Made by a program: the position numbers and the translations under genes. The notes beneath the pieces were generated by a model. It had not been told where the DNA came from and ran no database searches. It saw only the letters and a program-made list of their open reading frames with translations. DNA of 64,000 bases from Pontibacter sp. G13 (GTDB taxonomy: Bacteria; Bacteroidota; Bacteroidia; J057): positions 992,001 to 1,056,000 of the forward strand of contig NZ_CP134696.1 in assembly GCF_031851795.1 (NCBI RefSeq), in the 5' to 3' direction. This document shows, in pieces, positions 25,124 through 30,429 of this stretch; position 1 is the stretch's first letter; every line of letters begins with the position of its first letter.

Positions 25124-25570
25124 CTAGTTGTCGCTACTTGCCTTAGCAAGCGTCTCAACGAATTCAGGAAGGTTTTCTTCGCGAGAGATTTCAGCAATTC
25201 TTTCTGCCAAAATACGCACTTGGCTGTTGTACTCATCGAGCATCCGCTTACCTTTCTTGGTGATGGTTACCAAGATAGAGCGACGATCCTCTTTGGAGTT
25301 TACACGCTTAACCAAGTTCAAACGCTCAATTTTGTCAACTAAAGAGGTCAAAGTTGAGAATTTAATTTTGAATCTCTCACCAATGGCTTTCATGCGTTGT
25401 GGCCCGAAGTCATTGATATAGAGGATGATTTCCATCTCATTGGCAGAAATCTTGTACTTCTTGCGAATTTCGTTTTGGTGATGTCTGAAGGCATCTCGCA
25501 TGTGGATCAGCTGTTGCTCCAATACATTGGATTCTTGTACGCTGGTATCCAAATTACTTTCTTTTGCCAT
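25124..25570 (-). CDS. MarR-family transcriptional regulator
   Basis: The ATG at 25570 gives 148 residues (MAKESNLDTSVQES); the longer frame would need a TTG inside the leader. The winged helix-turn-helix is clear: ISANEMEIILYINDFG, QRMKAIGERFKIKFSTLTSLVDKIERLNLV (recognition helix) and the wing RVNSKEDRRSILVTITKKGKRML, the MarR signature DxRSxxxxLTxxG. These proteins bind DNA as dimers and often repress themselves or efflux and stress genes. No target is adjacent apart from the CHAT-pseudokinase gene and the GH3 gene on the same strand. An imperfect inverted repeat at 25804-25830 might be an operator. Confidence 0.92.
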   Translation of the reverse strand: MAKESNLDTSVQESNVLEQQLIHMRDAFRHHQNEIRKKYKISANEMEIILYINDFGPQRMKAIGERFKIKFSTLTSLVDKIERLNLVKRVNSKEDRRSILVTITKKGKRMLDEYNSQVRILAERIAEISREENLPEFVETLAKASSDN

Positions 25571-25648
25571 AGTCGGTAAAGTTAAAGGTGATATCTGTAG
25601 CAGGCCCAACTGTTTGACCTGTGAATAGTTGGCTTTGGCCTAAGTTTA

Positions 25649-25679
25649 CAACGATATAAGATTCGGAAAAATTGCAAAA
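25649..25679 (-). promoter_or_regulatory. Promoter of the MarR-family gene
   Basis: On the minus strand TTTTG at 25679-25675 is followed, 18 bases later, by TATCGTTG (25656-25649), seven of eight matches to TAnnTTTG. The start codon is about 80 bases downstream. This is one of the better promoter matches in the window. Confidence 0.5.
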
Positions 25680-25803
25680 GTCTGTTTTTCGGTAATATTC
25701 CCGAGGTCCAAAATGTGCAAATATAGGCTTTTGGTTAGAACGTAAAAACCCAAAAAATGGTTTTCTGAAATTCCAGAAACTAATGGTATTTTTTTTGGTA
25801 TTG

Positions 25804-25830
25804 ACAGGTTGCTAAGTAACTGTCTAGCAA
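25804..25830. promoter_or_regulatory. Inverted repeat, possible operator
   Basis: GACAGGTT and TAACTGTC flank GCTAAG as a near-perfect inverted repeat. TTGCTA (25809-25814) and TAGCAA (25825-25830) form a second, overlapping one. It lies between marR and the end of the CHAT-pseudokinase gene, about 240 bases upstream of marR, in an otherwise empty AT-rich stretch (25571-25977). It could bind the MarR dimer or fold as RNA at the end of the kinase transcript. Confidence 0.3.
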
Positions 25831-25977
25831 CAGCCTCTACCTAGAGCGAACTTGGGTTGTTCAGAAGCATTTGGGAGGACACTTACAAAAATATCCAAGA
25901 AATCTGATCAAGAAACCCACAAAATGGGAAATCTTAACATGTACAGAAACACAAACTACAGGGAGACAGAAAAGTTA

Positions 25978-27636
25978 TCAATCATTAAACCAGAACCGGA
26001 CCCTTCTTACCACTTTTTTGTGTTTAGCCAGATCATTTGCCAGATCAGAAGCAGAATCATACCGATCATCCACATTGGGATGGGTTGCCCTAAACAGGAC
26101 TTTACTTAGGGATTTGGGAAATACCCTATAATTGCTTTTTACGAATCTATGCAGTTCATTGTCTGATTGAAAGTAAAATTCCCCTCTGTGCTTACCTGTT
26201 ATCATCTGAAAAAACACACATCCAAGCGCATATATATCAGATTGCTTATCCAATGAAGCACGTCCATCCAAGACCTCGGGCGGTCGAAAAAATTCTTGAT
26301 TTTCGGTTTTTAAGCGCGCTTTCACTGCCTCTGGGATCATAATTCTAATATTCCTTGAGCGCGAAAGGTCAAAAAACAGGAAATCTATAAGTTTGGGATC
26401 GCCTTCATCCGACATCATAACCTTACGGGTCCGAAGATTGCCATGCAAAATCCCATTTCGGGGAATTCCTGCATGATCGGTGTAAGATTGAGCATGCGCA
26501 GCGGCCAATCCAAGTGCCAATTTTTCTGCGGTTTCGAGAAATGCCAAGTGACCTTTTCTACCAATAAAGGCAGAACGATCAATCCAAGTGTCCAAATGAT
26601 CCCCTTTGATCAACTCCATGACAATGTATAATCGGGGGGTTCCCTGAAGCTCAATTTCTCCAACATCTGTGAAGCTCACGACGTTAGGATGATCGATCGA
26701 CATGATTCCCTTACTTCCTTCCAACAAAATATGCCGAAGATCCTGATAGCCCTGATATACGGGATGGGTAATTTTGATCGCTCGCTCTTCCCCTAAATTC
26801 TCATGAATTGCCCGAAAAACGGTACCGACCCTACCTTGACCAAGTACTTCCTCTAGTCGATAATTGTCAATTTTAGTTCCTATCAGCTCTGAAACATCAG
26901 GGAGTTCCGTAGGTCCCAACTCTGATTCTGGGGTATAAAACAATCTCCATTGAGACGGGAGCCATGCTTCACGTTCCCTCAAAAAAAGCTTCCAAGGCAA
27001 TTGGGGAATTTCCTCTGTCACATCTTCGTCTGATACCCCCCACGCCATACCACGGGTCATTCCTTGCTCCTCCATCCATTGGGGGCCCATCTTGGCCAGA
27101 ATCATCCCTTCAGCCTCCCCAAACGCTTCATCAATGCTTGCCCCATTTCCTAGTCCACGATAAAAATATCCAGCAAACTCTGTAGCTAAAGCATCGTCGA
27201 TTTCTTTGGATGTGGCGATTACCGCTGGGATTTGGGCATCCATGAGCAATTGGGCCTGATCCAGAGTAGCGCATCCATTTAGGAAGACCAACTTGAGGCC
27301 CTTTTGCACACTGAGGAATCTAGCCAGACCCACAGCAAACATGGATTGATTTTCTCCATGTTCCCCATGAACCCATAGGCGATCTGGATGCGCATGACCT
27401 CCATAATGAAAAATGGCAATCCGGTGATCATACCATGCATCCTGAAAGACCTTTGCAACGTCTCCCTGTTCGAGCGCGGGAACCAATTTCATTTGGCAAT
27501 GCTGGGCTCGGACGGCAGGCTCTAATCCTTCAAGGATCACCTTCATCTCAAAGCCCAATTTTCGGAGGAATCCTGAAGGTGTCCACTCGTTCGCAAACCC
27601 CATGAAGACCACCGGCGTGTTGGATTTCTTCGCCAC
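25978..27636 (-). CDS. CHAT-type caspase-like protease domain fused to a pseudokinase
   Basis: The gene encodes 552 residues from a GTG start (an ATG 11 codons later is also possible). Residues about 1-190 resemble a CHAT protease: FHYGGHAH gives a catalytic His81 and VFLNGCAT a catalytic Cys122. Residues about 255-545 are a eukaryotic-like Ser/Thr kinase fold: glycine loop LGQGRVGTVFRA, the ATP-anchoring Lys in RAIKI and SDIYALGCVFFQMITGK. However, the catalytic HRDLKPxN reads HGNLRTRKV (Asp to Asn, and the metal-binding Asn lost) and DFG reads DFL. The kinase is therefore probably inactive and may serve as a sensor or scaffold. CHAT proteases act in cell-death and CRISPR-linked defence; this fusion's role is unknown. 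No partner gene is adjacent apart from a MarR regulator. Confidence 0.8.
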   Translation of the reverse strand: MAKKSNTPVVFMGFANEWTPSGFLRKLGFEMKVILEGLEPAVRAQHCQMKLVPALEQGDVAKVFQDAWYDHRIAIFHYGGHAHPDRLWVHGEHGENQSMFAVGLARFLSVQKGLKLVFLNGCATLDQAQLLMDAQIPAVIATSKEIDDALATEFAGYFYRGLGNGASIDEAFGEAEGMILAKMGPQWMEEQGMTRGMAWGVSDEDVTEEIPQLPWKLFLREREAWLPSQWRLFYTPESELGPTELPDVSELIGTKIDNYRLEEVLGQGRVGTVFRAIHENLGEERAIKITHPVYQGYQDLRHILLEGSKGIMSIDHPNVVSFTDVGEIELQGTPRLYIVMELIKGDHLDTWIDRSAFIGRKGHLAFLETAEKLALGLAAAHAQSYTDHAGIPRNGILHGNLRTRKVMMSDEGDPKLIDFLFFDLSRSRNIRIMIPEAVKARLKTENQEFFRPPEVLDGRASLDKQSDIYALGCVFFQMITGKHRGEFYFQSDNELHRFVKSNYRVFPKSLSKVLFRATHPNVDDRYDSASDLANDLAKHKKVVRRVRFWFND

Positions 27637-27783: not shown

Positions 27784-28371
27784 ATGAAACGCATTGGCAC
27801 ACACTGGTACAAGGCCCTTTTCGCAGGTATGATCCTGCTGGCACTTGGTTGCAACGGTGATCCTTGCAGCGACACTGACTGCGGCACCTTTGGTACTTGT
27901 TCCGAAGTTTCCGACGAAGCACTCTGTATTTGTGACACCGGCTACGAACCCGACGATGAGGGACGTTGCGAAATCCGTTCCGCCTCTAGATACGAAGGCA
28001 CCTGGACCGCCACCGAAACTTGTGTCGACCAAAACAACCAGACTTCCACCCAAACCTATTCAGTGGTGATCACCTCTTCTTCGGACACCACACAACTCAC
28101 GCGTATCTTCTTGTCCAACTTGGGCAATTTTGATTGTCAACCCAATGTAGTGGGTACCATTTCAAGATCCAGCCTTACCATTGCGGAAGCTACTTACTGT
28201 GTAGAAGTTGACAATATGGGCAACCTGATTGACCCAGGCGTACAATTCTCCACATCTACTGGACGCCTTGAAGCGACCAACGATACCCTGAATCTATCTT
28301 ACGAAGCTGTTTTCGAGGAAAACGGGGTAGCACAAAGCAAAGCATGCGAGGTATTCCTTGTGAAGGAATAA
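27784..28371 (+). CDS. Lipoprotein with an EGF-like cysteine module
   Basis: The gene encodes 195 residues with a lipoprotein signal ending in LLALGC (Cys23). The next 45 residues hold six cysteines in EGF-like spacing (DPCSDTDCGTFGTC, then ALCICDTGYEPDDEGRC). The remaining part is a beta-rich lipocalin-like or immunoglobulin-like stretch (YEGTWTATETC ... ACEVFLVKE). EGF-like modules are uncommon in bacteria but do occur in Bacteroidota surface lipoproteins. No enzyme motif is seen. It is divergent from the CHAT-pseudokinase gene across 147 bases and ends in a terminator. Confidence 0.82.
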   Translation: MKRIGTHWYKALFAGMILLALGCNGDPCSDTDCGTFGTCSEVSDEALCICDTGYEPDDEGRCEIRSASRYEGTWTATETCVDQNNQTSTQTYSVVITSSSDTTQLTRIFLSNLGNFDCQPNVVGTISRSSLTIAEATYCVEVDNMGNLIDPGVQFSTSTGRLEATNDTLNLSYEAVFEENGVAQSKACEVFLVKE

Positions 28372-28654: not shown

Positions 28655-30163
28655 CTAGCGTACGATCAACTTGCGAGTCAACTGACCAGCTTCAGTCTGG
28701 ATGTTCAAGAGGTAAACACCAGCTTGCTGTCCAGCGAGATCCAAAGACCAGTTAGCGGAAGTAGCTTGAGTTACAGTGGACTCAGTAACTACTTGACCCA
28801 ACAGGTTAGTAACTGTAACTTTTACATCAGCAGCGTTAGCCATTTCCAAGGAAACATTGAATACGCCAGCAGATGGGTTAGGGAATACTTCCAAAGAAGC
28901 GTTCGCCAACTCGTTCAAGCTAGAAGAGATGTCTTCGATCACGACTTCTTCAGTTACTACGATGGAGTCACCGTTACAAGTGTTCCAAGCAGTAAAGATC
29001 GCAGTGTAAGTACCAGCAGTATCATACGTGTGGTCAACAACAGACATGTTGGAAGTGTTGCCATCACCGAAGATCCACTCAACGGAGTCAGCGTCCAATA
29101 CTTGACCAGTGAAGGAAACAGTGTTTCCGTTTACAACAGAACCAGCAACTGCGTTAGGTACAGGCGCCAAGATAGTCTTAACGGAAGAATCCAAGCAAGT
29201 AGCCCAGTATCCGTTCTGCAAAGCGAACAATTTCACTTCGTAAGGGAATCCACCAGCAGCGTAGCTGTAAGTCAAATCAACCGCGTTGGCAGTGTTGCCG
29301 TCACCCAAGTCCCACAGGTAAGTGGAGTCAGCGTTGCCACCAGCAAATACATTGAGGTTGTACATGCGGTTGTTGATCAGGTCAGAAGACTTGTTTGTGA
29401 AAACGTTAGGACTCTGTACAGAAATACAGTCCATTCCTTCCAATTCGTAGTCGATAGTCAAATCGTAGCTTACGTGAGGAACCATGAAGAAATCACAGTC
29501 CATCAATACTGGGTTGGTTTGGTCACCCAAGTTGATGGTGTAACCTGGCAACCAAGATCCTTGGAACTGGATGAAAGACAACCACTCGGAACCACCATCC
29601 TGAATACCAGGGGTTGGATCGTTGATGAACATCGTGATAGAAGAGTCACCAGCAGATTCCAAAACAACCATGTAATCACCAGTAACGGAGATTGGAGTTG
29701 CGAAATTGACAATATGCTTTACTTTGGAAGCTCCGTTCTCCAAAGTGAAGTTAGCAGAACCCAGCTGAGTGGCAGGGAAGGAGTCAGTACCTACAGACCA
29801 GATGGATGCAGTCGCAGCTTGGTTGATTACAGCCAAGGTGTCATCAGAGTCAATGTAAGCAAAGATGTTTACACCAGAGATAGAGATTGGTGTAGAATCA
29901 GAACCAGCGTAGTACTGACCGTAAGACAGACCTGGCAAGAAAGTCAACACGAAGTTGCTAGTAGCCTTGATCAATGGGTAGTTGGCAGTATCAGGACCGC
30001 AAGTAATGGTACGAGTCATGTCCTCGTGGCTGCGCATCATAGAAGCCACTTCAGCATTGATTTTGGCAGAAGCTTCTGGAGAGGCAGGTCTCACGACAGG
30101 AGACTGGGCCCAAGACCCAACAACGGCCAGCATAGCCGCTGCAAATAGCGTCAACGTTTTCAT
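28655..30163 (-). CDS. Secreted PKD-domain protein with T9SS type A sorting domain; strong codon bias
   Basis: The ATG at 30163 gives 502 residues with a signal peptide (MKTLTLFAAAMLAVVGSWAQ); an upstream in-frame ATG at 30241 does not. Two PKD-type domains are seen (YLWDLGDGNTANAVDLTYSY; VEWIFGDGNTSNMSVVDHTY). The end is the type A sorting domain: ASLEVFPNPSAGVFNVSLE ... VKVTVTNLLGQVV ... GVYLLNIQTEAGQLTRKLIVR. It is exported by type IX secretion and probably attached to the surface. The gene avoids TTA, CTA and TCA codons over at least 474 codons, leaving a long spurious antisense frame. This bias is typical of highly expressed proteins. No enzyme domain is recognised. Confidence 0.9.
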   Translation of the reverse strand: MKTLTLFAAAMLAVVGSWAQSPVVRPASPEASAKINAEVASMMRSHEDMTRTITCGPDTANYPLIKATSNFVLTFLPGLSYGQYYAGSDSTPISISGVNIFAYIDSDDTLAVINQAATASIWSVGTDSFPATQLGSANFTLENGASKVKHIVNFATPISVTGDYMVVLESAGDSSITMFINDPTPGIQDGGSEWLSFIQFQGSWLPGYTINLGDQTNPVLMDCDFFMVPHVSYDLTIDYELEGMDCISVQSPNVFTNKSSDLINNRMYNLNVFAGGNADSTYLWDLGDGNTANAVDLTYSYAAGGFPYEVKLFALQNGYWATCLDSSVKTILAPVPNAVAGSVVNGNTVSFTGQVLDADSVEWIFGDGNTSNMSVVDHTYDTAGTYTAIFTAWNTCNGDSIVVTEEVVIEDISSSLNELANASLEVFPNPSAGVFNVSLEMANAADVKVTVTNLLGQVVTESTVTQATSANWSLDLAGQQAGVYLLNIQTEAGQLTRKLIVR

Positions 30164-30429
30164 AAATGAAGTTTTGATAAGGTTTTCTGTAGATAACCCA
30201 AATGCAAAATAGTCTACACAAAGGAACAGACCGAAAATCATAATTCCTAATAGTTGGAATACAATCCAAGCTCGGTTTTCCCTACGGCAGGTAAAAAGAT
30301 ATTTTATATCAATAGCTCCAATTTCAAAAAATCCGGCCGCTTACAGAATTCAAACAAATTTTCCATAAAAAGCTGCCACTGTTAGGCATGCGGGCCTATT
30401 TTTGATCGTTTGGAAACTTGATATTTCGA

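Follow-up and report, generated by a model that had tools for sequence, protein, structure and literature searches.

A kinase domain without its catalytic residues is joined to a protease in one polypeptide of Pontibacter sp. G13, and the question that this locus raises is what the dead kinase does for the protease. The gene lies in a window of 64,000 nucleotides (contig NZ_CP134696.1, positions 992,001 to 1,056,000 of the forward strand), in which an initial annotation had proposed a CHAT-like protease fused to a pseudokinase without naming a strand. The segment holds a single open reading frame on the minus strand (Table 1), and its product, labelled P0001, exceeds the Pfam-A gathering cut-offs for both domains: CHAT (PF12770) matched residues 72-184 with 27.4 bits (cut-off 24) and Pkinase (PF00069) residues 259-538 with 81.4 bits (cut-off 31.7). 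Bacterial pseudokinases are described as largely unexplored by experiment (PMC12599244), and a dead kinase that shares its chain with a protease, presumably its output, makes the switch function open to a direct assay of nucleotide versus cleavage. On the combined evidence of sequence, structure models and analogy, P0001 is best explained as a single-polypeptide CHAT protease that would be gated by a nucleotide or by a partner, a reading to which we assign a probability of about one half.

The N-terminal half is supported as a CHAT peptidase with a caspase-type fold by its sequence profile and its predicted structure. A profile of eight N-termini, compared with solved chains, retrieved the SAVED-CHAT protein 8tl0 at 1.3e-13 from sequence alone. 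An AlphaFold2 model of P0001, built with eight relatives, reached a mean predicted local distance difference test (pLDDT) of 75.9 and a predicted template modelling score (pTM) of 0.56; its weak stretches include residues 82-99, 188-212 and 421-428, and within the linker pLDDT fell below 50 at 188-212, 223-225 and 235-242. Among the matches listed by a structure search with the whole model were kinases only, a result in which the absence of other families carries no weight, and the N-terminal 241 residues were therefore folded alone (mean pLDDT 62.3). The resulting model aligned with 8tl0 over 185 residues (Z 14.9, root mean square deviation (rmsd) 4.0; best Foldseek E value 1.8e-8), and the next structural matches were caspases with Z scores of 8 to 10. 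The predicted catalytic dyad, His81 and Cys122, lies in the motifs HYGGH (residues 77-81) and LNGC (residues 119-122), from which a His/Cys pair had been recognized initially; it looks intact, both residues being kept in every copy that shows the position (Table 1).

The C-terminal half adopts a kinase fold in the model, which superimposed on PknA (4x3f) over 251 residues (Z 27.2, rmsd 2.2), and the solved chains closest in sequence, among the best 60 of 918, were the bacterial Ser/Thr kinases StkP, PknA and PknB. To the same half belonged all PADLOC matches of P0001 among the best 25 of 32, led by PD-T4-6 models at 2.6e-34; such matches are expected of any bacterial kinase, and in P0001 the catalytic residues, which the PD-T4-6 models may or may not require, are gone. 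Residues were counted in an alignment of 54 kinase-like domains found in the fetched loci with a pseudokinase profile (E 1e-10, identical rows removed). Fifteen of these belong to CHAT-pseudokinase proteins, namely 13 proteins and the second domains of two tandem proteins; among the 39 others, 38 cover the catalytic loop and twelve are near copies from one family (f50). The initial annotation had read a kept glycine loop and VAIK-type Lys together with the loss of the HRD Asp, the metal-binding Asn and the DFG Gly, and each of these readings is borne out, the loop being GQGRVG at residues 266-271 and the substituted sites being HGN, Lys405 and DFL (Table 1). The apparent loss of the helix-C Glu, whose site is occupied by Gly307, is an addition to that list. 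The 14 pseudokinase domains covering this site have Gly (11), Asn (1), Lys (1) or Ser (1), compared with Glu in 34/39 other kinases; some of them carry a Glu one or two residues before it, and a register error is possible for a minority. The DFG motif reads DFL, DFM or DFA, except in one domain of a tandem protein, where it is DML. Decay of a single copy, the outcome that would have left a merely degenerate gene, is ruled out because identical changes, HGN for HRD among them, are fixed in 15/15 domains on one branch of the tree: all 14 pseudokinases included were separated from the other rows by a branch with support 100/99 (unrooted, 51 of the 54 rows; three rows shorter than 200 amino acids, one of them a pseudokinase, were omitted). 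The comparison supports a genuine family-wide pseudokinase, from which the residues needed for ordinary phosphotransfer are missing. Two genomes of one genus encode proteins of ~870 amino acids in which CHAT is followed by two tandem pseudokinase domains, both with HGN (G010:C29:97642-100230 and G002:C73:36137-38722; loci L013, L014, L052 and L053).

The domain matches none of three bacterial pseudokinase types, as these are characterized in the available text of PMC12599244. GLW proteins have Leu or Trp in place of the ATP-binding Lys, which is kept here in 14/14 domains as Lys288; DLHK proteins retain the HRD Asp, replaced here by Asn in 15/15; CP1 proteins are fused to a COG3899 ATPase, and the Pfam-A search, in which COG models were not run, placed only CHAT and kinase above the cut-off.

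The position of the pseudokinase within the polypeptide is informative when related proteins are compared. BLAST of P0001 against the fetched paralogous loci returned 24 proteins. Nineteen of them were scanned with Pfam, 16 matching P0001 through the CHAT module and three through the kinase only. What follows the module varies: iSTAND in four paralogues (L030, L032, L033, L035), nSTAND1 with WD40 in three (L028, L029, L036), nSTAND1 with weak beta-propeller matches in one (L037), nSTAND1 with an FGE-sulfatase domain in two (L026, L027) and EAD11 in one (L031); L034, L043 and L045 have no C-terminal partner above the cut-off, L002 lies just under the CHAT cut-off (23.4 bits) and L004 is without a CHAT match. 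STAND, iSTAND and EAD domains belong to the conflict systems described by Kaur et al. (2020, PMC7159879), and the pseudokinase occupies the slot usually held by the switch of such systems. A sensor that switches on proteolysis had been suggested at the outset, where the label 'death-type' for the protease is conjectural. The switch or sensor role is indeed the natural reading, because STAND-type or EAD domains stand at the same place in the paralogues; the gating by a ligand we infer. Since the pseudokinase sits in the slot of these partners, a nucleotide- or partner-gated CHAT protease offers the best explanation of the fusion.

As side observations on the paralogues, one family member (G004) gave 20 alignment matches, two of them kinase-only and many of them joined to STAND, WD40 or further domains, and the genome of the window gave three. 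Two adjoining CHAT-like genes in the latter (G000:C1:3186249-3188937; L004, L002) are possibly a protease/pseudoprotease pair, as one product has the His and Cys (HFTGH, LSGC) and the other, which carries TPR repeats, has lost both (HLAGF, LNGS).

The kind of gating is suggested by a set of residues shared with the JH2 pseudokinase domains of Janus kinases (JAK). These domains have HGN for HRD, Ala for the helix-C Glu and DPG for DFG, and human JAK3 JH2 carries Lys652 at the metal-coordinating Asn and shows a tight, cation-independent binding of ATP that in the authors' account the Lys can explain (PMC6287396). JAK3 JH2 and the bacterial domains thus agree in HGN, in the Lys at the metal-binding Asn, in the missing helix-C Glu and in the retained DFG Asp, and both are regulatory domains, putatively so in P0001, joined to a catalytic one. 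They differ in the DFG motif, where JAK has lost the middle residue and kept the last Gly, whereas the bacterial proteins (DFL, DFM, DFA, once DML) have lost the last Gly; moreover, the joined catalytic domain is a kinase in JAK and a protease here. We take the likeness as convergence, a resemblance of mechanism and not of descent, because the closest solved chains in sequence are bacterial kinases. On account of the shared residues, metal-independent nucleotide binding is the leading prediction, and the bacterial Lys-for-metal arrangement would allow the explanation offered for JAK3 to be tested independently.

In the mechanism that we propose, the CHAT domain with His81 and Cys122 would constitute the peptidase output and the pseudokinase would stand in the switch position. 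It may bind ATP or a related nucleotide in the metal-free manner of JAK3 JH2, with Lys405 at the site of the metal-binding Asn; alternatively, it may dock a partner while held in a nucleotide-stabilized shape. A change in occupancy would free or assemble the CHAT domain, and a target protein would be cleaved.

Several findings weigh against this mechanism. The JAK parallel rests on the residues named in PMC6287396, the alignment and the tree containing no JAK sequence, and the same source cites an estimate that puts the nucleotide-binding share of pseudokinases at 30-40%. At 0.56, the pTM of the whole model is too low for the packing of CHAT against the kinase half to be predicted. No partner gene is linked to the locus in all 13 genomes that carry it, a neighbouring MarR-family gene being on another contig in three genomes of one genus (g9). 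Selection gave no guidance, as the ratio of nonsynonymous to synonymous substitution rates (dN/dS) was not estimable from two genome pairs with saturated synonymous sites; the sole value obtained (0.133, for the CHAT half of one pair) is unreliable, its dS being 3.2. Furthermore, degenerate glycine loops occur in g9, with NIGNFG in two of its genomes and SIGNFG in the third, and in one tandem protein, whose two domains read GAGTTS and GANENN.

The poorly kept loops speak for a pure scaffold, in which the pseudokinase would bind no nucleotide and only dock a partner or substrate, such as an active kinase or a regulator, for the CHAT domain. Scaffolding pseudokinases are known, and a docking platform would agree with the tandem pseudokinase pairs of two genomes. 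However, every covering copy keeps Lys288, Lys405 and Asp418, the residues expected around the nucleotide site, for which a pure scaffold would have no obvious need, so that we consider this alternative somewhat unlikely.

Known systems resemble P0001 in its parts. The SAVED-CHAT protein 8tl0, the closest solved relative of its CHAT part, and TPR-CHAT (Craspase) share the peptidase family and fold and combine peptidase and sensor in a single chain. They differ in that the partner is SAVED or TPR, that CHAT is C-terminal in 8tl0 (match at chain residues 286-454) and that these proteases are CRISPR-linked (PMC11417357), whereas no cas gene was found with Pfam among the ten window neighbours of P0001. 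The 8tl0 structure is titled as an activated filament, and in CalpL, another CRISPR-linked protease, binding of cA4 by the SAVED domain leads to oligomerization and activation (PMC11417357). The CHAT-nSTAND1-WD40, CHAT-iSTAND and CHAT-EAD11 paralogues of the same family begin with the same CHAT module (~220 amino acids, 28-43% identity over the aligned part), end in a STAND, inactive-STAND or EAD module instead of a pseudokinase, and occur several to a genome. MLKL also combines an N-terminal executioner domain with a C-terminal pseudokinase in one polypeptide, the executioner being a four-helix bundle. The layout is alike, the type of executioner and the DFG motif (GFE in MLKL; PMC6287396) differ, and no common origin is suggested.

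Both halves have close precedents in conflict systems. Kaur et al. (2020, PMC7159879) report caspase-type domains with variable C-terminal partners, as well as catalytically disrupted kinases on the vWA components of vWA-MoxR (VMAP) systems, mainly of actinobacteria. The latter resemble P0001 as dead kinases in a conflict-type architecture; they are situated on vWA components, no CHAT-pseudokinase polypeptide is described in the portions of that account available to us, and neither vWA nor MoxR genes were detected with Pfam among the ten neighbouring window proteins. In the available text of PMC12599244, on bacterial pseudokinase families, neither 'HGN' nor 'Bacteroid' occurs and 'chat' appears in author names only. 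The matches listed from the PMC literature, a search outside which most subscription papers lie, likewise included no CHAT-pseudokinase protein. The view that no such single-protein design had been described appears to hold for the combination, and not for its two kinds of part, which Kaur et al. already describe.

Within the limits of the searches, the architecture looks restricted to one family of uncultured Bacteroidota. A search of 60 genomes including that of the window was extended to the order, where 13 of the 22 genomes belong to the family of the window, and gave a match in 13/13 family genomes. Seven of these copies are complete, among them the one full-length copy in the genome of the window; another five are truncated at contig ends and still show parts of both halves, and one (G005) consists of the C-terminal part at a contig start. 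P0001 is 35-50% identical to its 12 relatives. No match spanned both halves in the 9 other genomes of the order, and outside the family all listed matches were kinase-only in searches of the class (395 genomes) and the phylum (296 genomes), which had an E limit of 1e-30, at most three or four candidates scored per genome and overlapping genome sets. An alignment-pattern scan of 84,980 species genomes returned eight loci, all on contigs of Bacteroidota metagenome-assembled genomes that coincide with family contigs; the scan was not exhaustive, since its pattern fails to recover P0001 and at least three further members (L011, L012, L014). Genome contigs scanned with the single protein as query gave no match, viral contigs gave two that were kinase-only, and among 188 matching plasmid records none covered 80% of the query.

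The surroundings of the gene are conserved as well. The MarR-family gene adjoins it in all 10 family genomes outside g9, directly in nine (the window, L046, L047, L049, L050, L051, L052, L053 and L057) and through two overlapping contigs in the tenth (G006), and GH3 comes after MarR in nine of these ten linked loci. A MarR orthologue is present in 13/13 family genomes, with 59-79% identity in the 12 others; elsewhere in the order (9 genomes) a single genome gave a match at E 1e-20, with 48% identity. The window copy has trp genes, GH3, a DUF3857-like protein, an ECF sigma factor and a glycosyltransferase in its neighbourhood. The CHAT-pseudokinase gene is a core locus. A location in defence islands, which had been considered at the outset, is not supported, given the conserved neighbours in 10/13 genomes, the housekeeping surroundings and the lack of a convincing PADLOC match among the ten neighbouring window proteins. 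A CHAT protease kept as a core gene in one bacterial family is at odds with the picture of mobile defence parts.

This setting bears on the idea that P0001 is an antiviral effector working alone, in which a phage trigger would activate CHAT and kill the cell. CHAT proteases do take part in defence that depends on gasdermins or on type III CRISPR systems (PMC10197012, PMC11417357), the paralogous CHAT-STAND genes look like conflict systems, and P0001 diverges more (35-50%) than MarR, GH3 (67-68%, four best) and TrpE (61%, two found). Nevertheless, its presence throughout the family among housekeeping genes argues against abortive infection, fast divergence is not special in view of the even less conserved DUF3857-like neighbour (29-32%), and no gasdermin was found by Pfam among the ten neighbours, where no dedicated gasdermin search was made. 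Taken together, we judge such an effector unlikely. Conservation below that of MarR, GH3 and TrpE and above that of the DUF3857-like protein would suit a sensor under changing pressure and proves nothing.

Less probable still is an autoproteolytic release, in which CHAT would be the constant trigger that cuts the linker (~191-250) and frees the pseudokinase as the acting part. Such a model would account for a constant CHAT module with variable C-terminal partners in the paralogues and for a linker that is variable and modelled with low confidence, and there is a precedent in the release proposed for EACC1-linked caspase proteins, whose C-terminal domains vary (Kaur et al., PMC7159879). On the other hand, no EACC1-like partner is evident, the upstream gene being divergent and without a Pfam match (no search was aimed at EACC1). 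Within a nucleotide-gated CHAT protease, a more specific and decidedly speculative version would have the convergent, JAK3-JH2-like pseudokinase, with Lys in place of Mg2+, gate a protease whose target would be the adjoining MarR protein, so that a change in nucleotide state would bring about an irreversible derepression, either instead of cell death or in addition to it. SelO and SidJ are kinase-fold proteins with other chemistries. A non-canonical transferase, in which the kinase fold would perform AMPylation, glutamylation or another reaction on a substrate held for CHAT, could draw on the existence of kinase folds with other chemistries (PMC10870513) and on the kept Lys and Asp of the nucleotide site, but is very improbable in view of the metal-binding Asn and helix-C Glu lost in all covering copies, which count against metal-dependent transfer.

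Table 1. Features of the CHAT-pseudokinase gene and of the adjoining regulator gene (window coordinates)
Feature	Position	Strand	Remarks
CHAT-pseudokinase gene	25978..27636	-	GTG start, 552 aa (P0001); CHAT and Pkinase both above Pfam gathering cut-off; match in 13/13 family genomes
CHAT (caspase-like) peptidase domain, residues 5-190	27067..27624	-	PF12770 profile, 8tl0 sequence profile, predicted fold
Predicted catalytic His81 (HYGGH)	27394..27396	-	kept in 10/10 CHAT-pseudokinase proteins showing the position; codon checked
Predicted catalytic Cys122 (LNGC)	27271..27273	-	kept in 12/12 CHAT-pseudokinase proteins showing the position; codon checked
Variable linker, residues 191-250	26887..27066	-	partly low model confidence; poor conservation in alignment
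Pseudokinase domain, residues 251-544	26005..26886	-	PF00069 profile; predicted fold compared with PknA 4x3f
Lys288, beta-3 Lys (VAIK; AIK here), kept	26773..26775	-	14/14 pseudokinase domains covering the site
Gly307 at helix-C Glu site (Glu lost)	26716..26718	-	Glu in 0/14 covering pseudokinase domains
HGN (398-400) for HRD	26437..26445	-	15/15 pseudokinase domains; Asp in 38/38 other kinases covering the loop
Lys405 for metal-binding Asn	26422..26424	-	15/15 pseudokinase domains; Asn in 38/38 others
DFL (418-420) for DFG, Asp418 kept	26377..26385	-	Asp kept and Gly lost in 15/15; DFG in 38/38 others
MarR-family regulator gene, next gene downstream	25124..25570	-	MarR PF01047, 40.6 bits; ATG start checked; adjoins CHAT-pseudokinase gene in 10/13 family genomes

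The gap ahead of the MarR gene measures ~285-485 bases, and co-transcription with the CHAT-pseudokinase gene is therefore not implied. In the window this gap (25571-25977) contains a palindrome like GGNAATATTNCC, which was picked after looking and occurred above shuffles in 4/10 loci; it is a possible autoregulatory MarR operator. The same palindrome was above shuffles in 0/7 upstream regions of CHAT-pseudokinase genes and in 0/3 MarR upstream regions of g9. An operator shared by the MarR and the CHAT-pseudokinase promoters is thus not supported and was not used as evidence. Two weak PADLOC matches on the MarR protein (E ~8e-4) probably reflect winged-helix similarity and were disregarded.

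Upstream of the CHAT-pseudokinase gene, the divergent gene at 27784-28371 has no Pfam match and encodes, judged by eye, a cysteine-rich putative lipoprotein; a 34% identical relative lies beside the copy in G006 (L048:1767-2357). Further upstream, an open frame of 474 amino acids on the plus strand (28724-30148) runs antisense to a gene for a PKD / type IX secretion-tail protein (28655-30241, minus strand) and is probably a composition shadow.

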